This document shows positions 1-11,876 of a stretch of 32,501 bases of DNA, one piece after another (position 1 is the first letter of the stretch; every line of letters starts with the position of its first letter). The position numbers were made by a program, and so were the translations under genes. This DNA is from a virus, in the IMG/VR virus record IMGVR_UViG_3300027759_003243, positions 1 to 32,501 of that record; one strand, given 5' to 3'. The notes beneath the pieces are model-generated. The model did not search any database, was not told the DNA's origin, and saw nothing but the letters and a program-made list of their open reading frames with translations.

Positions 1-2
1 AT

Positions 3-76
3 TGGTGCCCCACGACAGAATCGAACTGCCATCACAGGATTACAAAACCAGTGTACTACCATTGTACTAGTAGGGC
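3..76 (-). tRNA. tRNA-Thr (TGT)
   Basis: Cloverleaf on the minus strand with acceptor GCCCTAC pairing GTGGGGC, discriminator A and encoded CCA. The anticodon loop TTTGTAA gives UGU. Two T-T mismatches weaken the anticodon stem, unlike the second Thr(TGT) copy at 6381-6454, so this copy may be degenerating. It is the last gene of the unit driven by the promoter at 182-210. Confidence 0.85.
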
Positions 77-83
77 GAAAATT

Positions 84-160
84 TGGCTCCCCAGCGTGGG
101 CTCGAACCACGGACAACTTGATTAACAGTCAAGTGCAACTACCAACTGTGCTACTGGGGA
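84..160 (-). tRNA. tRNA-Asn (GTT)
   Basis: Perfect acceptor TCCCCAG/CTGGGGA, discriminator G, encoded CCA, anticodon stem CTTGA/TCAAG with loop CTGTTAA, and a canonical T loop TTCGAGC. It sits directly downstream of a perfect-consensus promoter. A very different second Asn(GTT) gene lies at 6639-6717. Confidence 0.93.
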
Positions 161-181
161 ATATGTCTTTATTTAATATGA

Positions 182-210
182 ATTATACACTAGGTTGAAT
201 TTGTTGTCAA
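182..210 (-). promoter_or_regulatory. Perfect sigma70-type promoter for tRNA-Asn/Thr
   Basis: Read on the minus strand, TTGACA (210-205) is separated by exactly 17 bp from TATAAT (187-182). The predicted start is near 175, just ahead of tRNA-Asn. A 10-bp inverted repeat (arms 189-198 and 207-216, 8-base loop) overlaps the -35 box and spacer and also covers the stop codon of the HNH gene. It could be an operator or a termination hairpin for that gene. Confidence 0.85.
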
Positions 211-211
211 C

Positions 212-772
212 CTAGTTTAGTAGAATTCTACTGTGCTTTGGAACACCTGCTAACAAGTAATCCATTTGGTCAGCTAGAATGTTACGATGTTGTAAAATCA
301 TATTTTCGTAATGATTAGGTACATAAGGGGTGTACAGAAGTTCCATGCGGGCTTCTTTCAATGTCTTATGACCTTTCTTACTGTTACATTCTTTACAAGC
401 AGTAACAACATTCATCCAAGTGTTTTCGCCACCTAAAAATTTAGGGACAATATGGTCCCTGCTTAAGTGATGATAGTTAGCGTGGTGTTTACCACAGTAC
501 GCACACACTTGCCGGTCCCGACCAAACAATGTTCTGTTAGTTAATGCTACATTAGCATGTTTGTAAGGGTTGAATCCGTGACCTTTCACAGCGATAATAC
601 TAGAAGTTTCAATATAACTTTGGTCACCAGTGTTTTGAAAACCCCCACGATACTTAGCCACAATTTCACCCATGCTCCATGCTACCGCATCTTTAGCGTG
701 GTATGTAATTGCGTCATCGTGCGAGATCCATTGTCTTGGAACTCCTGAAATATCTAGTGCTAGAACAGCCAT
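212..772 (-). CDS. HNH endonuclease
   Basis: Free-standing HNH nuclease of about 186 residues. The C-terminal half holds the classic zinc-HNH core: CAYCGK, then LSRDHIVPKFLGG, then ACKECNSKKG, so two CxxC pairs bracket the DH catalytic pair. I choose the ATG at 772 over the upstream start at 799 because AAGGAG lies six bases before it. The N-terminal ~80 residues are not recognised and may bind DNA. It follows tRNA-Arg(CCG) in a tRNA array, the usual place for phage homing nucleases, although a packaging or restriction role cannot be excluded. Its stop overlaps the inverted repeat of the next promoter. Confidence 0.85.
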   Translation of the reverse strand: MAVLALDISGVPRQWISHDDAITYHAKDAVAWSMGEIVAKYRGGFQNTGDQSYIETSSIIAVKGHGFNPYKHANVALTNRTLFGRDRQVCAYCGKHHANYHHLSRDHIVPKFLGGENTWMNVVTACKECNSKKGHKTLKEARMELLYTPYVPNHYENMILQHRNILADQMDYLLAGVPKHSRILLN

Positions 773-820
773 GTTGTACTCCTTTTCTGCTATTGTCACT
801 ATAACTATTTACTCTTTGCT

Positions 821-895
821 TGGTGAGCCCTGCAAGAATCGAACTTGCATCTCAAGTATCGGAAACTTGTATGCTATCCATTGCACTAAGGACTC
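821..895 (-). tRNA. tRNA-Arg (CCG)
   Basis: Acceptor GAGTCCT/AGGGCTC with one G-T pair, discriminator A, encoded CCA. Anticodon stem CAAGT/ACTTG with loop TTCCGAT gives CCG, reading the CGG codon. It lies right after the promoter at 903-931 and is probably co-transcribed with the HNH gene. Confidence 0.92.
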
Positions 896-902
896 ATATG
901 TA

Positions 903-931
903 ACTATAACACACTATTGAATAGTTGTCAA
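903..931 (-). promoter_or_regulatory. Sigma70-type promoter for tRNA-Arg (CCG)
   Basis: On the minus strand TTGACA (931-926), a 17-bp spacer and TATAGT (908-903). The spacer contains a small palindrome, ACTAT-TCA-ATAGT. A terminator lies immediately upstream, forming a terminator-promoter junction between transcription units. Confidence 0.8.
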
Positions 932-937
932 CCAAAA

Positions 938-958
938 CAAAACCCGACTAGCGGGTTT
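938..958 (-). terminator. Rho-independent terminator
   Basis: Stem AAACCCG (940-946) / CGGGTTT (952-958) with loop ACTAG. Read on the minus strand it is followed by TTTTGTTTTGG. It lies 28 bases past the stop of the small membrane-protein gene and just before the Arg(CCG) promoter. A T run on the plus side means it could act both ways. Confidence 0.75.
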
Positions 959-985
959 TTGTGAGAGTGTGTATTTGGTGAAGTT

Positions 986-1224
986 TTACTTCCTGTCAAA
1001 TGCCCAGGCCAAAACTCCAATTGCAACCAATCCAACTAAGCCTTGGCTACCAAGTGCTGTGATGAATTTGATTACATTAGCAAGAATATCCAATCCGATG
1101 AATGGTACTGCTGCTCCGAAGATGATTTGTAGGATTACGCCCACTGCTAAAAGTTTTACACCTAAGTCTAAAACGCTACTTAAAAAACCGCCTGCGACAG
1201 GAATCCTTTGTTCATTGCTTCCAT
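986..1224 (-). CDS. Small two-helix membrane protein, read with a -1 frameshift
   Basis: GAAAGGAAC (1239-1231) lies six bases before ATG at 1224. The zero frame reads 14 codons and stops at 1182-1180, directly after a run of six T (1187-1182). Shifting -1 on this run continues for 65 more codons to the TAA at 988-986, giving a 79-residue protein. Two strongly hydrophobic segments (around KLLAVGVILQIIFG and GLVGLVAIGVLAWAF) precede a charged end FDRK. No start codon exists upstream in the -1 frame, so initiation must be in frame zero. Either slippage is programmed, or one T is missing from this copy or assembly. A late-type box GATAAATA lies at 1256-1249. Function unknown; a holin-like role is possible but unsupported. 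Confidence 0.65.
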
Positions 1225-1270
1225 ATTTTTGTTCCTTTCACAAACTAATATTTATCCTAGTTTGAAAGGT

Positions 1271-1324
1271 ATAAGACCGTTGTCTTATTGCTCAGTAAAT
1301 GTATACTTATTGTGTAGTAAGTAT
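1271..1324 (-). other. Two consecutive hairpins downstream of tRNA-Arg (CCT)
   Basis: Stem ATAAGAC (1271-1277) / GTCTTAT (1282-1288) with a CGTT loop, and stem ATACTTA (1303-1309) / TAAGTAT (1318-1324) with an 8-base loop. They lie between the 3' end of tRNA-Arg(CCT) and the leader of the small membrane-protein gene. They may be processing or stability elements; neither has a clear U tract. Confidence 0.5.
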
Positions 1325-1332
1325 GTATATGT

Positions 1333-1407
1333 TGGTCTCACTAGATAGATTTGAACTATCATCTATTCTTTAGGAGAGAATTGTTCTATCCATTGAACTA
1401 TAGCGAG
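1333..1407 (-). tRNA. tRNA-Arg (CCT)
   Basis: Acceptor CTCGCTA/TAGTGAG, discriminator A, encoded CCA. Perfect anticodon stem ATTCT/AGAAT with loop CTCCTAA gives CCU, reading AGG. Confidence 0.92.
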
Positions 1408-1415
1408 GAATTAAT

Positions 1416-1491
1416 TGGTGCCATAAGCTGGACTCGAACCAGCAACACACGAATTTTCAGTCCGCTGCTCTACCATTGGAGCTACTATGGC
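1416..1491 (-). tRNA. tRNA-Phe (GAA)
   Basis: Acceptor GCCATAG/TTATGGC, discriminator A, encoded CCA, D stem GCTC/GAGC, anticodon loop CTGAAAA giving GAA, canonical T loop TTCGAGT. Confidence 0.92.
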
Positions 1492-1499
1492 ATATAGGT

Positions 1500-1645
1500 T
1501 TTCAAGCAACCAACTATCCTTTCAGACTCATTGGGTTGTCTCGTGTAAGAGAGTTTATACTACCTTATAATCGTGTGCGGTGTCACACAGCCAACCCGAA
1601 CTGTGCTAGATTATTTGGGACTCAATCTTATCGTCTAGCTTGAAA
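1500..1645 (-). ncRNA. Putative structured RNA spacer closed by an 8-bp inverted repeat
   Basis: The 156-bp gap between tRNA-Phe and tRNA-Ser contains no good ORF. It is closed by TTTCAAGC (1500-1507) / GCTTGAAA (1638-1645). On the minus strand the interior has hairpins such as AGATT/AATCT, CACAG/CTGTG with loop TTCGGGTTGG, and TCTC/GAGA, plus a possible long-range GGGTTG/CAACCC pairing. It resembles no RNA family I recognise. Processed spacer RNA is an alternative. Confidence 0.45.
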
Positions 1646-1647
1646 TC

Positions 1648-1734
1648 TGGAGGAAGATAACGGAATCGAACCGTGCCCCATTTTTGGAGCGAACATCTTT
1701 CCAAGATGCTTAGTATCCAATACATCTATCTTCC
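1648..1734 (-). tRNA. tRNA-Ser (GGA)
   Basis: Class II tRNA of 87 nt. Perfect acceptor GGAAGAT/ATCTTCC, encoded CCA, anticodon loop TTGGAAA giving GGA, and a long variable arm with stem CTCC/GGGG. The discriminator is T, whereas G73 is the usual serine identity base. Confidence 0.88.
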
Positions 1735-1744
1735 ATTGATTGGT

Positions 1745-1780
1745 GGTCAACCCATAGAGCCAGGCTCTACAATGCCGACC
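1745..1780 (-). other. Nested hairpin in tRNA spacer
   Basis: Stem TAGAGC (1755-1760) / GCTCTA (1764-1769) with a three-base loop, enclosed by GGTC (1745-1748) / GACC (1777-1780). It fills the gap between tRNA-Ser and tRNA-Leu(CAA), a short version of the inverted-repeat-bounded spacers elsewhere in the array. Confidence 0.4.
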
Positions 1781-1786
1781 GTAACT

Positions 1787-1865
1787 TGGTACCCCGCCTC
1801 GGAGTCGAACCGAGAGAACTCTTCCTTTTGAGAGAAGCGACTTTGCCAGATTTGTCCAGCGGGGC
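1787..1865 (-). tRNA. tRNA-Leu (CAA) with short variable region
   Basis: Acceptor GCCCCGC/GCGGGGT, discriminator A, encoded CCA. Anticodon stem CTTCT/GGAAG with loop CTCAAAA gives CAA. D stem GAC/GTC with a long D loop as in leucine tRNAs, but the variable region is only about six bases (AGTTCT) instead of the class II arm. Confidence 0.78.
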
Positions 1866-1876
1866 GTAAATTTTAT

Positions 1877-1953
1877 TGGTGCCCTAGGCGAGACTCGAAC
1901 TCGCAGAACCCGGCTTCTTAGACCGGTACCTATACCAATTCGGTTACCAGGGC
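1877..1953 (-). tRNA. tRNA-Leu (AAG) with short variable region
   Basis: Acceptor GCCCTGG/CTAGGGC, discriminator A, encoded CCA, D stem ACC/GGT. Stem CCGGT/GCCGG with loop CTAAGAA gives AAG (A34 would need deamination). The variable region is five bases (GTTCT). The class assignment is unusual for leucine, so the isotype is less sure than the tRNA call itself. Confidence 0.72.
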
Positions 1954-1958
1954 ATATT

Positions 1959-2296
1959 CAACATCCCGTAGCCGGGATTCTGTTCTATCCTAACATTAAT
2001 CTTTGCCACAACCCGAATCAATAGCGCAAGTGTTGCCTGACTCTGTTTGTGTTGCTTGTTATATCACGGTAGTTTAACGATTAGTTATTTGGTGGAACAT
2101 TCGGGATTCGAACCCGTCTCAGGAACCTTTGTCACCCTTGCGGATCTAGCTTGATGATAAATCTCTGCTTGGCTTCTATCAACTTCCAGATAGATTTGAG
2201 CCGACCTACACCATGCCCCATCAAATAACTAATCTTCTACACGCACTTGCCACAAGTCCCGAACTTCCTCTGTTGCCAGCGTTAGGTCGGATGTTG
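1959..2296 (-). ncRNA. Putative 338-nt structured RNA with three nested long-range helices
   Basis: Three sets of complementary arms nest around the tRNA-like segment at 2090-2219: CAACATCC (1959-1966) / GGATGTTG (2289-2296), GCAAGTG (2026-2032) / CACTTGC (2244-2250), and a perfect 12-bp helix GATTAGTTATTT (2079-2090) / AAATAACTAATC (2223-2234). The nesting implies the flanks and the core fold as one molecule between tRNA-His and tRNA-Leu(AAG). A motif TTCGGG followed by TTGTGGCAA occurs in both flanks. An alternative local hairpin ATCCCG/CGGGAT (1963-1978) competes with the outermost helix. No known family recognised. Confidence 0.5.
2090..2219 (-). ncRNA. tRNA-like RNA with 130-nt body and encoded CCA
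   Basis: The 5' end GGGGCAT pairs with 3' ATGTTCC through all seven acceptor positions (two G-T), followed by A and CCA. A canonical T loop TTCGAAT sits on a CGGG/CCCG stem. The ~90-base interior is far too long for a tRNA and does not fold into normal D and anticodon arms. It offers TCTATC/GATAGA with loop TGGAAGTT, GGCT/AGCC around it, and ATCC-GCAA-GGGT. It lacks the tmRNA 5' consensus and any tag frame. It may be a tRNA-Ser-like gene with a giant variable arm, an intron-bearing tRNA or a new tRNA-mimic. Confidence 0.55.
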
Positions 2297-2302
2297 AAAT
2301 CT

Positions 2303-2379
2303 TGGGGTAACCAATGGGGAACGATCCCATTCTATCGCTTTCACAGAGCGAGGTGCTAAACCTTTACACTATGGTCACC
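2303..2379 (-). tRNA. tRNA-His (GTG)
   Basis: Carries the histidine hallmarks: an extra 5' G(-1) facing C73, acceptor GTGACCA/TGGTTAC, encoded CCA, anticodon stem TCGCT/AGCGA with loop CTGTGAA. The T loop is ATCGTTC: bases 54 and 58 are A and T instead of the usual T and A. Confidence 0.9.
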
Positions 2380-2395
2380 ATAACTAAATATCTTA

Positions 2396-3148
2396 ATGTT
2401 TAAACCCAACTACGATTCTTTTTACAAACGTCATGCCAATCAATCAAAAGAATGGCTTCAATCTGACAGAAAAGAATTATATGAACTGAATTTAAAAACC
2501 AATTATGACTTATTAAAAAATAATAATTGGATTGATAACTCGTTTACATATAAATTTAATTCGCATGGCTTTCGTTGTGAAGAATTCACAAATGACCCAA
2601 CCATCATGTTTCTAGGGTGTAGCTTTACTTGTGGTATAGGCTTACCTGTTGATAACATCTGGCCCGAACTAGTATCTAAAAAATTAAATATGCGTTGTGC
2701 CAACTTAGGCATTGGCGGAAGTTCTATAGATACAGCATTTAGATTATGTCACGGATGGATTGATATAATAAAACCACAGATTGTAATATTACTTGAGCCG
2801 CCCGGCGTAAGAGTGGAATTAGTATACAATGATACTATTGTAAATTTAAACACCGGGATAACTGTATTTGAAAATGGATTCATAGCGAGCAAAAATCTAC
2901 AAAACCCAAATCATAATAACCATCAAACATTCATAAAAGAATGGAGTTTAGATGATAATAATGATTATTTTAATAAGATTAAAAATAAATTAGCAATAGA
3001 AAGTATATGCTCTGCTAGAAATATCAAATGTCTTTCAATTCCCTTTAAGGAAATATTTAAAAGAAAAGTTGACCTAGCTAGAGATTTATCTCATTACGGC
3101 ATTAAAAGCAATCAATTGTTTGCTGATTATATATTAACTAAAATATAA
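2396..3148 (+). CDS. SGNH/GDSL-type hydrolase
   Basis: 250-residue putative serine esterase/acyl-hydrolase. Block I is FLGCSFTCG with candidate nucleophile S76, a block III-like NLGIGG lies around N103, and the C-terminal D-x-x-H is D230/H233 in RDLSHYG. The fold and triad are read from motifs only, and the substrate is unknown; in phages such enzymes often act on surface sugars or lipids. The only protein-coding gene of this size on the plus strand inside the minus-strand tRNA array. No Shine-Dalgarno is seen. TAAATA (2385-2390) ends five bases before the ATG, suggesting a late, possibly leaderless, transcript. Confidence 0.82.
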   Translation: MFKPNYDSFYKRHANQSKEWLQSDRKELYELNLKTNYDLLKNNNWIDNSFTYKFNSHGFRCEEFTNDPTIMFLGCSFTCGIGLPVDNIWPELVSKKLNMRCANLGIGGSSIDTAFRLCHGWIDIIKPQIVILLEPPGVRVELVYNDTIVNLNTGITVFENGFIASKNLQNPNHNNHQTFIKEWSLDDNNDYFNKIKNKLAIESICSARNIKCLSIPFKEIFKRKVDLARDLSHYGIKSNQLFADYILTKI

Positions 3149-3150
3149 AT

Positions 3151-3229
3151 TGGTCTGTGCGGCAGGATTTGAACCTGCGATTTCTCACTTCCAAGGCGAG
3201 TAGATTAAACCAGACTTTCTCACGCACAG
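3151..3229 (-). tRNA. tRNA-Pro (TGG)
   Basis: Perfect acceptor CTGTGCG/CGCACAG, discriminator A, encoded CCA, stem CTCGC/GTGAG with loop CTTGGAA giving TGG, canonical T arm GCAGG-TTCAAAT-CCTGC. It begins two bases after the SGNH stop codon on the other strand. Confidence 0.92.
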
Positions 3230-3236
3230 ATAAACT

Positions 3237-3312
3237 TGGTGGGCTATCGAGGAGTCAAACCTCGCAACATCTCTATGTCAAAGAGACAGGATTTCCAATC
3301 ACTCTAAAGCCT
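3237..3312 (-). tRNA. tRNA-Val (GAC), poorly paired
   Basis: Encoded CCA, discriminator A, T stem CGAGG/CCTCG and a perfect anticodon stem TCTCT/AGAGA with loop TTGACAT giving GAC. The acceptor AGGCTTT/ATAGCCC has mismatches at the first and sixth pairs, and the D arm is weak. It may be decaying. Confidence 0.65.
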
Positions 3313-3318
3313 ATTATT

Positions 3319-3395
3319 TGGTGGACACATGTGGGATTCGAACCCACGACATCCTACTTGCAAGGCAGGCGTTCTTCCAACTGAACTAATGGCCC
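3319..3395 (-). tRNA. tRNA-Ala (TGC)
   Basis: Anticodon stem CCTGC/GTAGG with loop CTTGCAA, D stem GTTC/GAAC, T arm GTGGG-TTCGAAT-CCCAC, encoded CCA. The 3' acceptor strand has one extra base (ATGTGTCC against GGGCCAT), so a bulged T is needed to pair it. Confidence 0.82.
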
Positions 3396-3404
3396 ATAAA
3401 AACT

Positions 3405-3479
3405 TGGTACCCAGTGTTGGTTACGATCCAACTACAACCGCCTTATCAAGACGGCACCTCACCATTCGGTCTACTGGGC
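3405..3479 (-). tRNA. tRNA-Ile (GAT)
   Basis: Acceptor GCCCAGT/ACTGGGT, discriminator A, encoded CCA, stem CCGTC/GGCGG with loop TTGATAA giving GAT. The T loop is ATCGTAA with A54 and T58 swapped relative to the canonical pair. Confidence 0.88.
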
Positions 3480-3492
3480 AATAAATACTATT

Positions 3493-3654
3493 ATGAAAAC
3501 CTACAAGAATATTACTCCTGGAGGCTTAAACTTTCACCTATCATTAATTGATGGTGTTTGTTGTATGGTTGTATATGACAGATACTTTTGCGAGTATCAA
3601 ATACAATATTTTACTAATATCAACAAAGCATTACGCTTTATCAATAATCTTTGA
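3493..3654 (+). CDS. Small hypothetical protein, 53 aa
   Basis: ATG to TGA open frame with an ordinary protein-like composition (begins MKTYKNITPGGLNF, ends NKALRFINNL) that fills the gap between tRNA-Ile and tRNA-Met, ending one base before the Met tRNA. No Shine-Dalgarno, but TAAATA (3482-3487) sits exactly five bases before the ATG as for neighbouring genes. No family recognised; it runs opposite to the tRNAs. The call rests on the box spacing and the clean fit to the gap. Confidence 0.5.
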   Translation: MKTYKNITPGGLNFHLSLIDGVCCMVVYDRYFCEYQIQYFTNINKALRFINNL

Positions 3655-3655
3655 T

Positions 3656-3731
3656 TGGTGGTAATAGTTGGACTCGAACCAACGATAGTCTGCGTATGAA
3701 GCAGGTGCATTAGCCACTATGCTATATTACC
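3656..3731 (-). tRNA. tRNA-Met (CAT)
   Basis: Perfect acceptor GGTAATA/TATTACC, discriminator A, encoded CCA, anticodon loop TTCATAC giving CAT. A paired first position (G1-C72) argues for an elongator, or an Ile tRNA with lysidine at C34, rather than an initiator. Confidence 0.88.
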
Positions 3732-3737
3732 ATATAG

Positions 3738-3824
3738 AAACATACTACCAAGAGTCCGATTCTTGTCAAGACGCATCAGCTTTGTGTTCTAGACCACGCT
3801 GCCTAACTTCGTCATAATATGTTT
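3738..3824 (-). ncRNA. Putative structured RNA with T-arm-like hairpin
   Basis: The spacer between tRNA-Met and tRNA-Thr(GGT) is closed by AAACATA (3738-3744) / TATGTTT (3818-3824). Inside, CAAGA (3749-3753) / TCTTG (3761-3765) holds a seven-base loop reading ATCGGAC on the minus strand, like the variant T loops of nearby tRNAs. GACG/CGTC (3770-3773, 3810-3813) closes a second domain. There is no CCA and no anticodon arm. It could be a decayed tRNA or an independent RNA. Confidence 0.4.
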
Positions 3825-3829
3825 TTATA

Positions 3830-3903
3830 TGGTGCTCCTTACTGGTAACGATCCAGTGTCTATACATTACCAATGTATTATAATACCTTTATACTAAAAG
3901 AGC
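3830..3903 (-). tRNA. tRNA-Thr (GGT)
   Basis: Acceptor GCTCTTT/AAGGAGC, discriminator A, encoded CCA, perfect anticodon stem ATACA/TGTAT with loop TTGGTAA giving GGT. The T arm ACTGG/CCAGT carries the variant loop ATCGTTA. Confidence 0.88.
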
Positions 3904-3907
3904 AAAT

Positions 3908-3985
3908 TGGTGCGCCCCGAGAGGTTCGAACTCCCGACCCCTGGCTTCGTAAACCAGTGCTCTAATCCGGCTGAGCTAGGGACGC
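3908..3985 (-). tRNA. tRNA-Arg (ACG)
   Basis: Acceptor GCGTCCC/GGGGCGC, D stem GCTC/GAGC, stem CTGGT/GCCAG with loop TTACGAA giving ACG, T loop TTCGAAC, encoded CCA. Very bacterial in appearance. Its first 24 bases are also the 3' end of the adjoining HNH frame, which stops in the D loop. Confidence 0.93.
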
Positions 3986-4648
3986 CTTTAATTTTTTCAT
4001 AACCCGATAATGAGTTCCGCTATCATTCAGTCCCAATGATAGTAATGCTTTACGAATACTTCCGTTATGCACTAGTAGCGCATCTATTTTTTCTTTATCG
4101 GAGTATTCGGTCTTTGTCTTTAAATTTTTAAAGACAGTTTTTTCTTTCTTTGGTCTACAACTATTGCACCAATGCTGTAAAGGAGTGTTTGTATCAGTCC
4201 CACATACGTTACATTTGTTTATTTTTTTAGGAGTTCTACCCTTGATCCAACCTTGAGGTTCTGTCCCGGGTAAATATTTTCCTGCTACTAAATTATCTAA
4301 ATTATGATACCATAATTTTCCATAACTTCCATTATTTTTACCAGTGCGTTGACGACATATCTCAATATAGCGGCGTTTCAACCAACCATACATTTTGTTG
4401 TTTCTCCTAGCATATTTGCTACTAACAACCATCATTTGAGCAGCATAAATCAACTTTGGGGTATTATGTATTTTTACTAAAAGTAAATGTGCTGTATAAT
4501 GCTCTTCAGGAGTTAATCTGACTAGGTTACTAGATGCATCAGTTCCTCCTATACATTTAGGAATAATATGATGAGTTTCGTAACTCTCAGTTAGTGTTCT
4601 ATTTTTTGCGCGGGTGATAAGTGTATGATAGTGTTTTTCGTAGTTCAT
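3962..4648 (-). CDS. HNH homing endonuclease, C terminus running into tRNA-Arg
   Basis: 228 residues. The N-terminal HNH motif is ETHHIIPKCIGGTDASSNLVRLTPEEHYTAH (residues ~24-54). A GKNNGSYGK segment near residue 105 resembles the NUMOD3 DNA-binding motif. It is followed by a four-cysteine zinc finger (CNVC...CNSC, ~146-170) and a basic helix-turn-helix-like end. The last eight codons and the stop lie inside tRNA-Arg(ACG). Upstream, 38 bases from the start, lies the 5' half of another tRNA-Arg, so the gene appears to be a mobile element lodged in a tRNA gene. TAAATA lies five bases before the ATG (4659-4654). Confidence 0.85.
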   Translation of the reverse strand: MNYEKHYHTLITRAKNRTLTESYETHHIIPKCIGGTDASSNLVRLTPEEHYTAHLLLVKIHNTPKLIYAAQMMVVSSKYARRNNKMYGWLKRRYIEICRQRTGKNNGSYGKLWYHNLDNLVAGKYLPGTEPQGWIKGRTPKKINKCNVCGTDTNTPLQHWCNSCRPKKEKTVFKNLKTKTEYSDKEKIDALLVHNGSIRKALLSLGLNDSGTHYRVMKKLKASLAQPD

Positions 4649-4685
4649 ACACTTATTTATCTTTTTGCGAACAAAATTAATAAAG

Positions 4686-4724
4686 TTCGTAGCCTAGTAC
4701 TCTATCCAACTGAGTTACGGTCGC
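4686..4724 (-). pseudogene. 5' half of a tRNA-Arg (ACG), truncated after the anticodon loop
   Basis: On the minus strand GCGACCG, then GTAACTCAGTTGGATAGAGT (D arm), CTAGG and the loop CTACGAA match positions 1-38 of a tRNA-Arg(ACG). The following bases CTTTA do not complete the anticodon stem and no matching 3' half with CGGTCGC is found nearby. The break falls exactly at the end of the anticodon loop, next to the HNH gene. A full but non-identical tRNA-Arg(ACG) follows that gene. Confidence 0.78.
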
Positions 4725-4729
4725 ATTAT

Positions 4730-6193
4730 TTATAAATTTAATTGAAATTTTACGTAGTTTTTAAGAAACTCAGCAGTAAAACTACGCATTGAATTCCAAT
4801 CTAAATCTTTTTTATATTTGTCAATGATGTCATCAATAGCGTAACCCGCTGATATTGGTTCGCCAAGTTGATAGCCTGCTGCTTTTTTATGTTCTCTTCC
4901 ACTAACATTTAGCTGAAAAGACTTTAATGTAGCATCACGATAATCCCATGTATCATTTGTCCATCGTGTATTATCTATAGGGGATAAAAATTTATAGCCA
5001 TGAGCAGCATAATTTTTATCAAATTCACTCGCCCATTTATTTGTATTATTTCTATAAATATGTAAAGCATGATACAACCAACTATGCATACCATTATCAA
5101 TACACCATTGTTCTGTTTTGTCTAAATCATCAGGAGAGTCTCCGGTTAATCCTACAATAAACCCTAACTCAAATGTAATATCATTTTTCCAAATGCTTTT
5201 TAATTCTAACAAAAAATCTTTAGCATTTTTACCGTTCCAAGGCTTACCAATTGCCTTACTTGCTTCTAGCCCAAAACTTTCTATACCAAAAAATGTGCTA
5301 CGTAGTCCGCTGTATTTTAATGATTCAATTTGTGTTCTAGTACTACCAATTATATCTAAACGATTGTAGCCAATCCATTCAAGTTTAAATGGCAATGTTT
5401 GTGCCATTTCTGCCAACTCATCAATTTTTTCAATACTTTCATTCATTGTATCATCAACAAAAAAGTATCGTGTGGTGCCAAATTTTTCAAAATTTGATAT
5501 CAATTCTTCTTTAATTAAAGAAAAATCTCGTATATATGTCCCCTTTCGTTTACCTAATAGGGGATAATTACAAAAACCACACTTAAATTGACATCCTCTA
5601 CCTAACTCTAACGGCAACACCTCATGAGGCTGTATACCTAACTTATCCATAAACCCATTGCCTTTTTTTGTAATATCAAAATTTGAACGTAAAATAATCT
5701 TATTTGATTTTTCATCAAGATATTTTAATAATGTATCTTCTGAATGATTGTAAAATTTAATCCAGCTAGCATCCCCTGTGTGGGCATGTGACCCACCTAT
5801 AAGCCAATCTAATGCTGGATATTTGCTTCTTAGTCTGGCCCTTGTTAGTGTTACCCAGTTTGGCATGCCGTCTCGTGTGAGTTCCGGGCCCCAGTCCGGG
5901 CCCCTACGTAAACTAATTGATGTGGCTAATGGCGCATCATAAGCTATAGAAGTGTTGGCTATGCTTTCGTTAGGGTACCAAAATGTGCTACTGACGCCAA
6001 TGGCTATTGTTGTACTATCAATATGTTTTTCAGTTAATGAAACCAAGTCATCAGTTGACAACAAACTACAAAAATCAATAACCTTTACTGTGTATCCAAA
6101 TTGTGTTAACCAAACTGCTAACTGATGGGCACCGGCTGGCCGCAATGCTGCGTAATCTAAATTAAATGTATTCCAAAGTATTAAATTTGCCAT
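4730..6193 (-). CDS. B12-binding-domain-like radical SAM enzyme
   Basis: 487 residues. The N-terminal ~160 residues look like the Rossmann B12-binding domain of class B radical SAM enzymes, but I see no DxHxxG cobalamin motif. The radical SAM core begins at GRGCQFKCGFC with cluster cysteines 201, 205 and 208, followed by a typical TIM-barrel sequence and a C-terminal extension. It is a paralogue of the protein at 7422-8963; both share the CNxPxLG and GIESF segments. Reaction unknown: methyl transfer, methylthiolation or ring chemistry are possible. The ATG has TAAATA five bases upstream (6204-6199) and no Shine-Dalgarno. The gene follows tRNA-Glu. Confidence 0.85.
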   Translation of the reverse strand: MANLILWNTFNLDYAALRPAGAHQLAVWLTQFGYTVKVIDFCSLLSTDDLVSLTEKHIDSTTIAIGVSSTFWYPNESIANTSIAYDAPLATSISLRRGPDWGPELTRDGMPNWVTLTRARLRSKYPALDWLIGGSHAHTGDASWIKFYNHSEDTLLKYLDEKSNKIILRSNFDITKKGNGFMDKLGIQPHEVLPLELGRGCQFKCGFCNYPLLGKRKGTYIRDFSLIKEELISNFEKFGTTRYFFVDDTMNESIEKIDELAEMAQTLPFKLEWIGYNRLDIIGSTRTQIESLKYSGLRSTFFGIESFGLEASKAIGKPWNGKNAKDFLLELKSIWKNDITFELGFIVGLTGDSPDDLDKTEQWCIDNGMHSWLYHALHIYRNNTNKWASEFDKNYAAHGYKFLSPIDNTRWTNDTWDYRDATLKSFQLNVSGREHKKAAGYQLGEPISAGYAIDDIIDKYKKDLDWNSMRSFTAEFLKNYVKFQLNL

Positions 6194-6234
6194 ATATATA
6201 TTTATGTGACACTAACGAATGCTATACATAAACT

Positions 6235-6309
6235 TGGTACTCAGTACGGGAATCGAACCCGTCTTTACAACTTGAAAGGGTGTCGTCCTAACCGATAGAC
6301 GAACCGAGT
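6235..6309 (-). tRNA. tRNA-Glu (TTC)
   Basis: Acceptor ACTCGGT/ACTGAGT, encoded CCA, D stem GTC/GAC, anticodon loop CTTTCAA giving TTC. One C-T mismatch in the anticodon stem. Confidence 0.87.
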
Positions 6310-6319
6310 ATAATAAAAC

Positions 6320-6375
6320 AGGATAGCATTTTTTTCATTAACGTTGAAAGTTTTTGAGTTTGCTGTTGCTATCCT
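6320..6375 (-). other. Spacer bounded by a 9-bp inverted repeat
   Basis: AGGATAGCA (6320-6328) / TGCTATCCT (6367-6375) encloses an A/T-rich 38-base interior that includes a TTCA/TGAA hairpin around AACGTT. It lies between tRNA-Thr(TGT) and tRNA-Glu. It may be an RNA processing helix. Confidence 0.45.
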
Positions 6376-6380
6376 AAAAC

Positions 6381-6454
6381 TGGTGCCCCATGACAGAATT
6401 GAACTGCCGTATCCTGATTACAAAACAGGCGTAATACCGTTATACGAAAAGGGC
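6381..6454 (-). tRNA. tRNA-Thr (TGT), second copy
   Basis: Acceptor GCCCTTT/ATGGGGC with one mismatch, discriminator A, encoded CCA, loop TTTGTAA giving TGT on a stem with four good pairs. Same length and 3' half as the copy at 3-76, so the two are probably duplicates that have diverged. Confidence 0.85.
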
Positions 6455-6460
6455 TAAAAC

Positions 6461-6535
6461 TGGCGCCATGGACGAGAATCGAACTCGCATAGAACGGATA
6501 GACAATCCGGTGCATTACCAGTCTGCTACCATGGC
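6461..6535 (-). tRNA. tRNA-Asp (GTC)
   Basis: Perfect acceptor GCCATGG/CCATGGC, discriminator G (the Asp identity base), encoded CCA, loop TTGTCTA giving GTC on a four-pair stem, T arm GCGAG-TTCGATT-CTCGT. Confidence 0.9.
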
Positions 6536-6542
6536 ATATATC

Positions 6543-6635
6543 TTCTCCCGACAGGACTTTCACCTGTAATATGTACAAACATCTATGTACCTTGCTTATG
6601 CAACTGAGACTGTTTAGCCCTCAGACTGACGAGAA
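6543..6635 (-). ncRNA. Cloverleaf-like structured RNA without CCA or canonical anticodon
   Basis: The spacer between tRNA-Asn and tRNA-Asp closes with TTCTC (6543-6547) / GAGAA (6631-6635) and contains four successive hairpins on the minus strand: CTGAG/CTCAG, TTGC-ATAA-GCAA, GTACA/TGTAC, and ACAGG/CCTGT with a seven-base loop TGAAAGT placed where a T arm would be. The order mimics D, anticodon, variable and T arms, but the four-base second loop cannot be an anticodon loop and no CCA follows. Candidate tRNA mimic or decayed tRNA. Confidence 0.48.
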
Positions 6636-6638
6636 ATT

Positions 6639-6717
6639 TGGCTCCGTATCTGGGTAACGATCCCAGCTAGTCATTGATTAACAGTCAAGTCCGTGCACCA
6701 TGCTCGGATTCTACGGA
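6639..6717 (-). tRNA. tRNA-Asn (GTT), divergent second copy
   Basis: Acceptor TCCGTAG/ATACGGA (six of seven pairs), discriminator G, encoded CCA, loop CTGTTAA on TTGA/TCAA giving GTT. T loop ATCGTTA is the swapped A54/T58 variant and the D arm is unusual. Little similarity to the Asn tRNA at 84-160 outside the anticodon arm. Confidence 0.83.
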
Positions 6718-6724
6718 ATAAATT

Positions 6725-6798
6725 TGGCAGGGGCACTAGGGATTGAACCTAGGCTAACAGAGTCAAAGTCTGTTGTGCTACCATTACACAATGCCCCA
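6725..6798 (-). tRNA. tRNA-Gln (TTG)
   Basis: Starts with T1 facing T72 (a weak first pair is a glutamine identity feature), GGGGCA/TGCCCC, G73, encoded CCA, perfect stem ACAGA/TCTGT with loop CTTTGAC giving TTG. First tRNA of the unit transcribed from 7042-7014. Confidence 0.9.
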
Positions 6799-6825
6799 AT
6801 AAATTTGTAACACACTATTTCTAAT

Positions 6826-7007
6826 GTGTGTATTAAAGCACTCTACATGGGTGCGTACCCACGTGTCACCTTTCGGCTAGAGAATGCTTTAATACGCTAC
6901 GATTTTTTGTCTCACAATAGAGACTCCATCCCGTAGGCCGCCCATTCGCCCATGTTTAAAGTGCAGGCTAGGATCTCGTTTCCTATAACACACTATCTTT
7001 CTAACTA
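6826..7007 (-). ncRNA. Structured leader of the Gln-Asn-Asp-Thr-Glu tRNA unit, with a three-way-junction domain
   Basis: Between the promoter and tRNA-Gln. The strongest domain is 6830-6895: an 11-bp stem GTATTAAAGCA / TGCTTTAATAC, inside it CTCTA (6841-6845) / TAGAG (6878-6882), and two apical hairpins. On the minus strand these are GCC-GAAA-GGT with a GNRA tetraloop (6877-6868) and TGGGT-ACGC-ACCCA (6861-6848). Upstream are GTCTC/GAGAC (6909-6913, 6920-6924), CTACG/CGTAG around it, and TAGGA/TCCTA. A downstream hairpin ACACAC/GTGTGT (6810-6831) overlaps one stem and could be an alternative fold. Confidence 0.5.
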
Positions 7008-7013
7008 ATCCAT

Positions 7014-7042
7014 ACTATAACAGAGTATCCATTTACTGTCAA
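7014..7042 (-). promoter_or_regulatory. Sigma70-type promoter for the tRNA-Gln unit
   Basis: On the minus strand TTGACA (7042-7037), 17-bp spacer, TATAGT (7019-7014). Inverted arms ATAACAGAGT and ACTCTGTTAT surround the -35 box and spacer. It lies just beyond the terminator of the upstream RNA unit. Confidence 0.83.
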
Positions 7043-7065: not shown

Positions 7066-7110
7066 AACACAAAAACAAAAACCCCTGAGTACTTTCGTAT
7101 CCCAGGGGTT
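7066..7110 (-). terminator. Strong rho-independent terminator of the 7.2-kb RNA unit
   Basis: Stem AACCCCTG (7080-7087) / CAGGGGTT (7103-7110) with an inner TAC-TTTC-GTA hairpin. On the minus strand the stem is followed by TTTTTGTTTTTG. A second small hairpin GTTGT/ACAAC follows at 7053-7068. Confidence 0.85.
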
Positions 7111-7122
7111 GAATAAATTTGT

Positions 7123-7272
7123 TATGATGTAACTTGTTATTCCGGTCCCCGGGCACCTCTTTGGTTATCATTGCCGCGAATACTTGTAGGATATGATACC
7201 GCAAAGGCCGCTAAGGTCTCTATAGACCATAGTCCCGTATGTTTCGGCATGTAACAAGTTTTATTCATCATA
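7123..7272 (-). ncRNA. Independently transcribed structured non-coding RNA
   Basis: Lies between its own promoter (7367-7339) and terminator (7110-7066), giving a predicted transcript of about 265 nt with no good ORF. The core is closed by two stacked helices, TATGATG (7123-7129) / CATCATA (7266-7272) and AACTTGTTA (7131-7139) / TAACAAGTT (7252-7260). Inside on the minus strand are CCG-AAACATA-CGG, an eight-pair hairpin with loop ATAG and arms GGTCT/AGACC (7211-7232), TATCAT/ATGATA (7166-7171, 7193-7198) and a GC-rich GGTGCCCGGGGACC element. No known family recognised. The T4 tRNA cluster also encodes stable non-tRNA RNAs of unknown role, which is the closest precedent. Confidence 0.65.
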
Positions 7273-7338
7273 GTATTCTATTTAGTCCTGGTTTAAAATA
7301 ACAGCAAATAACATATGTTTTTTACTGTTTATGTGTGT

Positions 7339-7367
7339 ATTATATAGCAGTATTGATTAGAAGTCAA
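7339..7367 (-). promoter_or_regulatory. Sigma70-type promoter for the structured RNA
   Basis: On the minus strand TTGACT (7367-7362), 17-bp spacer, TATAAT (7344-7339). A short palindrome AGAAG-GTTGA-CTTCT overlaps the -35 box. It lies head to head with the radical SAM gene start at 7422. Confidence 0.83.
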
Positions 7368-7421
7368 CCTTCTATTTACCCAAAGATTTTAGATATATCA
7401 TACCAAGCTAAATATGTATCT

Positions 7422-8963
7422 ATGTATCATTGTTTACTATTTAATCTTCACAAGCCACACACCGATAATTCCTGGGCAAGAACATCAGGTATACATCGAA
7501 TAGCAAATCACTTAAGAGAGCAAGGATGGGATGCTGAAGTTATTGACTTTGCTATAGCCTGGAGTTTTTCTCAATTAGAAGAATTAGCTAAATCTAGAAT
7601 AACATCAAATACTAAATTTATTGGATTTTCACATATGTTTCAAATGGGGAAATCACTTAAGAATTGGCCGGCATCAATAGAAAAATTTTGTGCCTATATT
7701 AAACAAACTTATCCTGACATAGTTATAATAACCGGATCGCAACACAATCCCAATTTCATTTCAGACAAGGTTGATTATAGTGTAACTGGTTACGGGGAAC
7801 ATGCCCTAGATGCGCTACTGAAATATAAATTCAGCAATGGACCAAGGCCTAAATTCAATTTAATAAAAGGATTGGCCGGGCAAAAATTGATTCATGCTTT
7901 AGAAAGCTATCCGGCTCACCCAATGCGTGAACCTACATTAATTTATGAAGATAGAGATTTTATTTTCCCCGGTGAGTGGAGCACCATAGAGTTTAGTCGT
8001 GGATGTAAATTTTCTTGCTCTTTTTGTAATTTTCCTGTACTAGGAGTTAAAGGAGATTATACAAGGACTGCTGAAGGTTTTAGAAATCATATAATGACTA
8101 ACTATGATAGATTTGGGATAGAAAATTATATGGTGTCTGACGAGACCTTTAATGATAGCACCGAGAAGATTACTAAGTTTGCAGATGTTGTTGAGACTTT
8201 ACCTTGGAAACCATATTTTACGGGTTTTCTAAGAGCCGATTTGTTAGTAAGCCGACCTAAAGATAAAGAAGAATTATTGCGTATGGGGTTTTTGGGACAT
8301 TTCTATGGAATAGAAAGTTTCAATCATGCTACCGGAAAGATAATAGGAAAAGGGATGGACCCAAGTAGGTTGCAACAAGGGTTAATTGATGTTAAAAAAT
8401 ACTTACTAGAGAACAGTAATAATACATATAGAGGGATGATTAGTATAATATATGGATTACCGTTAGAAACAAAAGAATCACTGTGTCAAACTGAAGAATG
8501 GCTTTTGGCAAACTGGAGAGACCAAAGCCTGATATCTTGGGGGCTTGATCTTACTGATAATGATATGGGTGCTAGTCATTCAAAACTTTCATTAAACTAT
8601 TCAAAATACGGATACAAAAAAATAGAAGGACCTTATGATTTCAAAAGGTACACTCAATCATTTTATAGTACGCCGGGCAACGTAACTATCACAGAAGATG
8701 AAGATGGCGACAAGGATGATGTTATCAATTGGAAAAATGAAAACATGGATCTTTCATACGCAATGGATAAAGCAAGAATTATTAAAAACAAATTTCCATT
8801 AAATGGTGGATTTCAAATAGGAAATTTACTTATAAATAAAAATACTAATAAATCAGCAACTATAGAAGAACGACTTTCTATTACTAGTAATCAAGCCGGC
8901 TGGAATTATACTGATTTTACTAAATTTATATCTAATTACATTGACAAAAAACTAAGTTTGTAA
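7422..8963 (+). CDS. B12-binding-domain-like radical SAM enzyme, second copy
   Basis: About 513 residues from the ATG at 7422. I prefer this start to 7335 because the extra residues look non-coding and overlap the minus promoter, while TAAATA (7409-7414) ends seven bases before this ATG. The N-terminal Rossmann-like domain ends in TGYGEHALDALL, similar to the GxGE segment of B12-binding radical SAM proteins, but DxHxxG is absent. The cluster motif SRGCKFSCSFC gives cysteines 195, 199 and 202. Paralogous to 4730-6193. Substrate unknown. The stop codon overlaps that of the convergent gene by 12 bases. Confidence 0.85.
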   Translation: MYHCLLFNLHKPHTDNSWARTSGIHRIANHLREQGWDAEVIDFAIAWSFSQLEELAKSRITSNTKFIGFSHMFQMGKSLKNWPASIEKFCAYIKQTYPDIVIITGSQHNPNFISDKVDYSVTGYGEHALDALLKYKFSNGPRPKFNLIKGLAGQKLIHALESYPAHPMREPTLIYEDRDFIFPGEWSTIEFSRGCKFSCSFCNFPVLGVKGDYTRTAEGFRNHIMTNYDRFGIENYMVSDETFNDSTEKITKFADVVETLPWKPYFTGFLRADLLVSRPKDKEELLRMGFLGHFYGIESFNHATGKIIGKGMDPSRLQQGLIDVKKYLLENSNNTYRGMISIIYGLPLETKESLCQTEEWLLANWRDQSLISWGLDLTDNDMGASHSKLSLNYSKYGYKKIEGPYDFKRYTQSFYSTPGNVTITEDEDGDKDDVINWKNENMDLSYAMDKARIIKNKFPLNGGFQIGNLLINKNTNKSATIEERLSITSNQAGWNYTDFTKFISNYIDKKLSL

Positions 8964-11006: not shown

Positions 11007-11876
11007 TTAAAGTTTATTAATACTATTTATAATACTTTTTAATGAATCTTCTCCTGCAGGGATGGGAACTGACCATTCATTTTTAAAATCACTCAACACT
11101 TCTGGATCTGTTAGATATTGTTTAGTTATTGTTTTCCAATAGTCAACTACTTCTAGTTTAGTGTTTTTGGGGAAAATAATACAATATCCACTAATGTCTA
11201 TCCATTTATTGTATTTCTTACTCATTGCCGGTACGTTGTATTGTGCCAATCCCAATGTAGTTCCTAATACTTTTAACTTACCAGAGGCGATATGTTCTCT
11301 AACTGTAGCCACCGGTAACATTGCGGCATTAATATGATTACCTAGCAAATCATTGACAATTGGACTAGCACCTTTGTAGGGCACTAATATTTGTGAGTTC
11401 TTTGGATTTATATTACTTAATAATTGATCTATCTGTAATTTGTGAGCCGGCGTACCTATACCAAATGATAGTACTGCGTCACTTCTTAGCTGATTTACCA
11501 AATCATCAAAGTCATTAATATTAGTATTTTTGCTAACAACTATTACTTCATCATATCTTCTGGTAGCAGATACATAATCAAAATCAAGTTTGTTGTTTTT
11601 TACTACAAAGGCTAAAGCTGCTATACTAGTAAATCCAATAACTGTTCCATCTTTAGGAGCAGTATTTAAGTATTGACTTCCTATCAATGATTCAGCACCA
11701 ACCTTATAATCAAATACTATATCAATATCAAAATTAGTTTTCACATATTTTTGATAATGTCGCATTGATTGATCCAATCCTCCTCCTGGAGGATAAGTTA
11801 CAACTGCTGTTATGGATGGTGCTGCATTAACTAGTGCAGAGAGGAAAAATAGGGTTATAAAAAGTAAATGTCTCAT
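11007..11876 (-). CDS. TctC-type periplasmic solute-binding protein
   Basis: 289 residues with a clear signal peptide (hydrophobic 4-16, cleavage near VNA-AP at 18). The mature protein has the family pattern of tripartite tricarboxylate transporter receptors: ITAVVTYPPGGGLDQ, GSQYL, PKDGTVIGF, SFGIGTPAHKLQ, VPYKGASPIVNDLLGNHINAAM, GKLKVLGTT. Such receptors bind carboxylates in the periplasm and deliver them to TctAB, neither of which is present here, so it would have to use host membrane parts or serve another purpose. TAAATA is five bases before the ATG (11887-11882). Captured from a bacterium. Confidence 0.88.
   Translation of the reverse strand: MRHLLFITLFFLSALVNAAPSITAVVTYPPGGGLDQSMRHYQKYVKTNFDIDIVFDYKVGAESLIGSQYLNTAPKDGTVIGFTSIAALAFVVKNNKLDFDYVSATRRYDEVIVVSKNTNINDFDDLVNQLRSDAVLSFGIGTPAHKLQIDQLLSNINPKNSQILVPYKGASPIVNDLLGNHINAAMLPVATVREHIASGKLKVLGTTLGLAQYNVPAMSKKYNKWIDISGYCIIFPKNTKLEVVDYWKTITKQYLTDPEVLSDFKNEWSVPIPAGEDSLKSIINSINKL

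Follow-up and report, generated by a model that had tools for sequence, protein, structure and literature searches.

The attenuators of amino-acid biosynthetic operons in E. coli and Salmonella (trp, his, leu, thr and ilv) combine a promoter, a short leader ORF and two competing structures, a 2:3 antiterminator and a 3:4 terminator, with the terminator preceding the regulated genes. T-box riboswitches answer tRNA shortage by antitermination. The tRNA cluster of phage T4 also encodes stable RNAs. Classical attenuator leaders contain at least two control codons for the amino acid made by the operon (PMC1183508). GOLLD and ROOL (PMC12286853), like the stable RNAs of T4, are large or stable, and several of these RNAs lie near tRNA genes in phage genomes.

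The unit described here has the arrangement of the amino-acid operon attenuators and lies before a phage tRNA array. It is very probably a ribosome-mediated transcription attenuator that would act as a general sensor of tRNA shortage.

Layout of the locus

The window, a virus record of 32.5 kb, was compared with relatives gathered among IMG/VR viral contigs; Table 1 lists the features of the locus. A sequence-only reading of this DNA had described a free-standing structured RNA gene with its own minus-strand promoter and a strong terminator, heading a tRNA array. Promoter, terminator and position are as described, the position in the relatives as well, and an Rfam search with the unit gave no match. 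The predicted transcript folds better than its shuffles, with a minimum free energy (MFE) of −76.7 over 266 nt (z = −4.8) and a z of −3.3 without the 5′ hairpin and terminator. The helices proposed for its core fared unevenly. Across 17 sequences, 73% of cells are paired versus 68% in shuffles, and there are 42 two-sided cells versus 19, but the 7+9 bp closing stem is patchily kept, with one pair of the 9-bp stem failing in 10 of the 17.

Table 1. Features of the putative attenuator locus in the window
Feature	Position	Strand	Basis or remark
Promoter P1, TTGACT-17-TATAAT	7367–7339	minus	11/12 match, joint best in the 10 kb scanned
Leader transcript	7331–7071	minus	directly upstream of the P2/RNA2 unit
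5′ untranslated hairpin of the leader mRNA	7301–7328	minus	predicted folds; similar hairpin seen in relatives
Conserved AACCAGGACTAAATAG block before the start codon	7278–7293	minus	near-invariant in 17 aligned sequences
Leader ORF, 44 codons + stop, MMNKTCYMPKHTGLWSIETLAAFAVSYPTSIRGNDNQRGARGPE	7271–7137	minus	coding tests; amino-acid and codon diversity
Candidate pause hairpin GGTCTATAGAGACC at a Trp codon inside the ORF	7215–7228	minus	4/8 pairs with two-sided changes (helix 6)
Region 2, GGTGCCCGGGG, toward the 3′ end of the ORF	7147–7157	minus	predicted antiterminator partner of the terminator 5′ arm
Intrinsic terminator AACCCCTGGGATACGAAAGTACTCAGGGGTT + T-tract	7071–7110	minus	strong predicted hairpin
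Region 3 (terminator 5′ arm)	~7097–7110	minus	pairs with region 2 in the predicted antiterminator
Second promoter P2, TTGACA-17-TATAGT + TG extension	7014–7042	minus	promoter scan
RNA2, structured RNA and first gene after the putative attenuator	7007–6805	minus	covariation; Rfam search
tRNA array	1–6798	minus	19 tRNAs called by ARAGORN and a further one by Rfam

The alignment of 17 sequences that shows the AACCAGGACTAAATAG block was made without use of that pattern. AGGA within the block may be the ribosome binding site; its spacing of ~14 nt to the start codon is unusually long and odd for an SD sequence.

Other features of the window lie around these elements. The contig stops inside the tRNA array. 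A tRNA-Asn-like sequence at 6639–6718 (minus), missed by ARAGORN, was recognized by eye, and the tRNA at 6384–6454 (minus) is called by Rfam only. Two minus-strand ORFs inside the array, 212–799 and 3962–4648, look by eye like HNH-type endonucleases, and a tRNA-Arg-like fragment (~4725–4680) lies upstream of the latter. The long tRNA spacers at 2090–2290 and 1500–1640 (minus) look structured by eye and are possible further structured RNAs, one of them with a T-arm-like 3′ end (GGGTTCGAATCCC). Radical-SAM proteins are encoded beside the array (7335–8963, plus) and within it (4730–6193, minus), one of the two with a weak B12-binding match, and a TctC-like receptor is encoded at 11007–11876. A role of the leader peptide as RiPP precursor for the adjacent radical-SAM gene (7335–8963) was considered and rejected, because a similar-sized neighboring long ORF is found only in the closest relatives.

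The leader ORF has a coding signature

The sequence-only reading saw no convincing ORF in the transcript, a statement overturned by the 44-codon ORF at 7271–7137. Phage proteins, together with a DNA-level search of the records concerned, led to seventeen relatives. The leader frame, 44–58 codons long, is open in every relative, and indels among the 17 aligned sequences come in multiples of three. In each of the nine representatives checked, both remaining forward frames are interrupted by stops. In a codon permutation test, these nine representatives scored 342 against a null of −865 ± 377 with a maximum of 284 in 2000 permutations, and a wider sequence set gave a z of 3.8. This signature suggests that the ORF is translated. 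Judging by dN/dS, which is mostly ~0.3–0.6, the peptide sequence evolves fairly fast; the 5′ block AACCAGGACTAAATAA is nearly fixed, and the motifs KHTGxW and SIRG are strongly conserved in the leaders of the family that includes the window (family A, below).

What could the peptide be? It has no convincing relative in Pfam or PHROGs, no PDB match and, in a structure model, no confident fold (pLDDT 56, pTM 0.11), and a small protein with a known fold was rejected as a candidate on these grounds. Annotated phage records were searched with a 601-nt region, two leader peptides, a peptide of ORF2 (the second small ORF, below) and three stretches of RNA2, and no relative came up. None of the 448 matches in one of the annotated-phage searches covers the query well, and the matches listed fall on a tRNA that the query includes. 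A pattern search of a genome collection gave one match, which has neither the ORF nor tRNAs and is taken as chance.

Two families of leaders before phage tRNAs

The 5′-block pattern matched in 43 stretches of viral contigs and the RNA2 pattern in 106. Upstream of RNA2, other phages have a like layout with a different small ORF of 36–55 codons (family B). The loci were collected by motif patterns and are related, so cell-wise p-values overstate independence; locus counts vary between tests because the flanking length needed or the de-duplication differs. Of 102 loci, 101 have a promoter match of at least 10/12 in the 160 nt before the leader ORF; of 102 shuffled controls, 7 do. Same-strand tRNAs lie at most 1.8 kb downstream in 79 of 80 loci. 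An RNA2-like core is found 69–425 nt past the ORF stop in 43 of 46 family-A loci (upstream control, 0 of 46); in the remaining three, the end of the available sequence is too near.

The order in family B is promoter, leader ORF, terminator, usually ORF2, RNA2 and tRNAs, and ORF2, where present, starts at a median of ~18 nt after the terminator. Between terminator and RNA2, the best promoter-like match is 8–9 of 12 in 52 of 59 family-B loci, which is the shuffled level, and 56 of the 59 lack a match above 9 of 12. Hence, the array in those 52 loci seems to need read-through. Most family-A loci, the window’s among them, have P2, which family B mostly lacks. Since P2 follows the terminator in the window’s family, the window array need not depend on read-through; in P2-bearing phages, the putative attenuator would add to a basal supply.

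This second small ORF, of ~48–60 aa and with the motif KEQLxxLIxxKxxRAKxY, is conserved between terminator and RNA2 in family B (L224, L230, L254 and others). It is also seen in many of the family-A loci L167–L222, often with its start codon inside P2, and in the window as a remnant only (ATGGATACTCTGTTATAG).

A terminator and a predicted competing antiterminator

Among 114 loci, 110 have a terminator-like hairpin between the leader ORF and the genes that would be regulated; two of the 110 proved to be the wrong hairpin and were removed before the antiterminator analysis. In the 108 loci analyzed, complementarity to the terminator 5′ arm is found upstream of the terminator, nearly always near the ORF 3′ end, and region 2 ends 23–49 nt before the terminator in 104 of them. 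Mean z for the antiterminator pairing is −3.0 in the 45 family-A loci and −3.2 in the 63 family-B loci. Examples of region 2/region 3 are AGGGTCC/GGACCCT, AGGGTTC/GAACCCT, GTCCAGG/CCTGGAC and TCCAGGGGTTTCATA/TATGAAACCCCTGG. Where loci differ in one partner, the other differs to match. The duplex with a locus’s own arm averages −17.6 kcal/mol versus −13.7 with the arms of other loci, and synonymous-codon shuffling of the leader weakens region 2 pairing (−18.5 versus −13.7; −16.9 versus −11.2), all duplex values coming from a best-site search that was applied identically to the shuffles. Two-sided cells exceed shuffles in alignments A7 (28 versus 11.5) and A8 (7 versus 2.6). There is thus support across relatives for a predicted antiterminator that would exclude the terminator. 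Taken singly, the window’s own antiterminator is not significant, with 9 of 100 shuffles equally good, so the case rests on the family.

In the full-length window transcript, the terminator is the minimum-free-energy state; hence, a switch must be kinetic. When folding of the window RNA was simulated without a ribosome, region 2 was hidden. A ribosome stalled at any of the codons tried from 10 to 36 let 2:3 pairing precede synthesis of the terminator 3′ arm, and when it stood at the stop codon the terminator alone formed. Stalls simulated from codon 8 to five codons short of region 2 freed the antiterminator in 98 of 98 loci, at practically every position tried; this simulation assumes from the outset that region 2 is blocked once the ribosome has reached the stop codon. 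The simulations thus predict that read-through would rise when a ribosome stalls in the leader. The simulated antiterminator still formed without a ribosome in most loci (family A, 27 of 37; family B, 59 of 61), which means that superattenuation is not a general feature.

Leaders that sample nearly all amino acids

The window leader peptide contains all 20 amino acids. So do 75 of 98 distinct leaders, and another 12 contain 19; the corresponding background, 47-residue segments of ordinary proteins from these phages, is 2.9% with all 20. Of leaders below 40% identity, 14 of 22 have the full set. Column shuffles, which keep the composition of each column, never reached the observed diversity (0 of 2000 in either family; for example, 14/16 observed versus 4.0 and 24/28 versus 6.5). 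A loss at one position is therefore made good at another. Fourteen ordinary-protein blocks from the same loci showed no diversity effect (mean z −0.04), and seven ORF2 peptides contain 17–18 different amino acids. Codon use is varied as well, with 35.7 distinct codons per leader versus 32.4 expected given the amino acids and 96 of 98 leaders above expectation (control windows, z −0.3). In family A, 33 of 37 leaders have used all 20 amino acids before region 2 begins; in family B, 38 of 61 have. From one family to the other the conserved motifs change, and the diversity of amino acids and codons is kept. A single control Arg codon (SIRG, YDRT) was also considered, but it is missing from some leaders, and the all-amino-acid pattern explains more.

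Are the exceptions informative? The comparison covered 48 loci that have 6 kb or more of downstream sequence and eight or more tRNA isotypes. Amino acids are absent from their leaders in 21 cases, and in 16 of these the tRNA in question is missing from the array too (odds ratio 24). Swapping arrays between loci gives an expectation of 3.7 matches, and 0 of 5000 swaps reach 16; the concordant absences come from about six lineages, so this p-value is optimistic. In L306, Asp and Glu are the only amino acids missing from the leader and the only ones whose tRNAs are missing from the array; the leader of L236 lacks Glu and Tyr, and its array lacks Asp, Glu and Tyr. The five mismatches are Phe in L163, Leu in L231, Arg in L234 and Val in L296 and L312; arrays may be incomplete where the contig or fetched stretch ends. 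In a general form, then, the putative control codons appear cognate to what the operon would supply.

RNA2, a structured RNA behind the leader

The object that does resemble the sequence-only description, with its own promoter and a strongly covarying RNA outside Rfam, is the next unit, RNA2, which is conserved in ~80 phage loci (alignment A6). In 77 sequences, 20 pairs in four helices have 92.7% of cells paired versus 66.8% in shuffles, with 387 two-sided compensatory cells versus 109. RNA2 belongs to no Rfam family, and neither the GOLLD nor the ROOL covariance model matches it. Its core consists of AACGAG, GCACUNNAAACAU and RAAYGGGCGGC, with a long helix GTATTAAAGCA...TGCTTTAATAC. As the first gene behind the putative attenuator, it may have a role in processing or transcription of the array.

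Judged by eye, the insertions in the long terminal helix of RNA2 vary, and some are tRNA-like. In L242, L120, L179 and L148 the apical insert can, again by eye, be taken for a tRNA or a fragment of one, with the T-arm GTAGGTTCAAATCCTAC or GGGGTTCGAATCCCC, and in L224 and L267 the helix seems by eye to be broken at its apex by a longer insert in which an ORF begins, resembling an endonuclease-type insertion. In the window RNA2 (6982–6994, 6807–6840), AGTGTG flanks ACACAC, giving two mutually exclusive pairings and a possible switch.

Discussion

How would such a unit work? RNA polymerase would start at P1 and make the short ORF, which a ribosome would translate. On reaching the stop codon, the ribosome would cover region 2, the 3:4 terminator would form, and transcription would end before RNA2 and the tRNAs. 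If a tRNA were absent or uncharged, the ribosome would stall earlier, leaving region 2 free to pair with region 3; the terminator would then come too late, and polymerase would continue into the array. Because the leader contains nearly all 20 amino acids and unusually varied codons, almost any tRNA shortage should give the signal. It is likely that a broad group of phages, with contigs of up to 345 kb, has such a sensor, a near-pangram leader kept matched to the tRNA set under its control, and turns on its tRNA array when any host tRNA is depleted, for instance by anticodon-nuclease defences or host RNA breakdown. The promoter, the ORF, the 2/3 complementarity, the position, the amino-acid and codon diversity and the leader-array match are features seen by comparing sequences; transcription, translation, the direction of the response and its trigger are what we infer.

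There are other ways to read the locus. The ORF could encode a small functional early protein, such as a host-takeover peptide, with the hairpin an ordinary terminator that insulates the tRNA array. The unit does have its own promoter and terminator, its conserved motifs and dN/dS would suit a protein, and attenuator peptides can act in trans (PMC7298713). This is nonetheless improbable: besides the missing family, PDB match and fold, leaders of dissimilar sequence are found at this site and are near-pangrams too, and a protein function leaves both the region 2 complementarity and the leader-array match unexplained. Slightly less probable still is an attenuator that responds to another translation signal, be it nascent-chain arrest, an inhibitor or a general translational slowdown, rather than to tRNA shortage. 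Strong conservation of SIRG and KHTGxW in family A would suit such a signal, and stalls at many positions free region 2, but those motifs change between families while diversity stays, and absent amino acids track absent tRNAs.

That the unit is a free-standing structured noncoding RNA, as the sequence-only reading had it, is very improbable. Low folding energy and partial covariation of the predicted helices speak for it; against it are an open frame with a coding signature in all relatives, the patchy closing stem, and an RNAalifold consensus of all relatives that keeps little besides the terminator. What survives of that description is a discrete promoter-to-terminator unit that belongs to a new conserved phage RNA family and heads a tRNA array. 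A conserved ORF with a coding signature, a predicted antiterminator, and RNA2 and tRNAs that follow without an above-shuffle promoter in relatives together make a cis-acting attenuator the best reading.

What would a tRNA-shortage attenuator imply? One that samples the tRNAs supplied by its array would imply that there are phages able to gauge tRNA shortage and respond to it; this would favor a depletion or defence-evasion view of phage tRNAs over simple codon compensation.

Among known systems, the amino-acid operon attenuators differ in that their leaders repeat control codons of the regulated amino acid, whereas the phage leader covers almost the full set of amino acids with many different codons, and its regulated genes would be phage tRNAs. 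The window fold, in which region 2 is hidden without translation, resembles superattenuation (PMC1183508). T-box riboswitches, unlike the phage leader, work by direct binding of tRNA and do not depend on a translated ORF, and Rfam searches gave no T-box match. The leader unit differs from the T4 stable RNAs, GOLLD and ROOL in having a coding ORF; RNA2 is better compared with them, but at ~200 nt it matches neither GOLLD nor ROOL in Rfam. In open-access full texts, we found no leader covering all amino acids and no attenuation of a phage tRNA array; subscription papers lie mostly outside this search, and an earlier report is possible. The class of mechanism is a known one; the general sensor, the tRNA-array target and the match between leader and array appear to be new.
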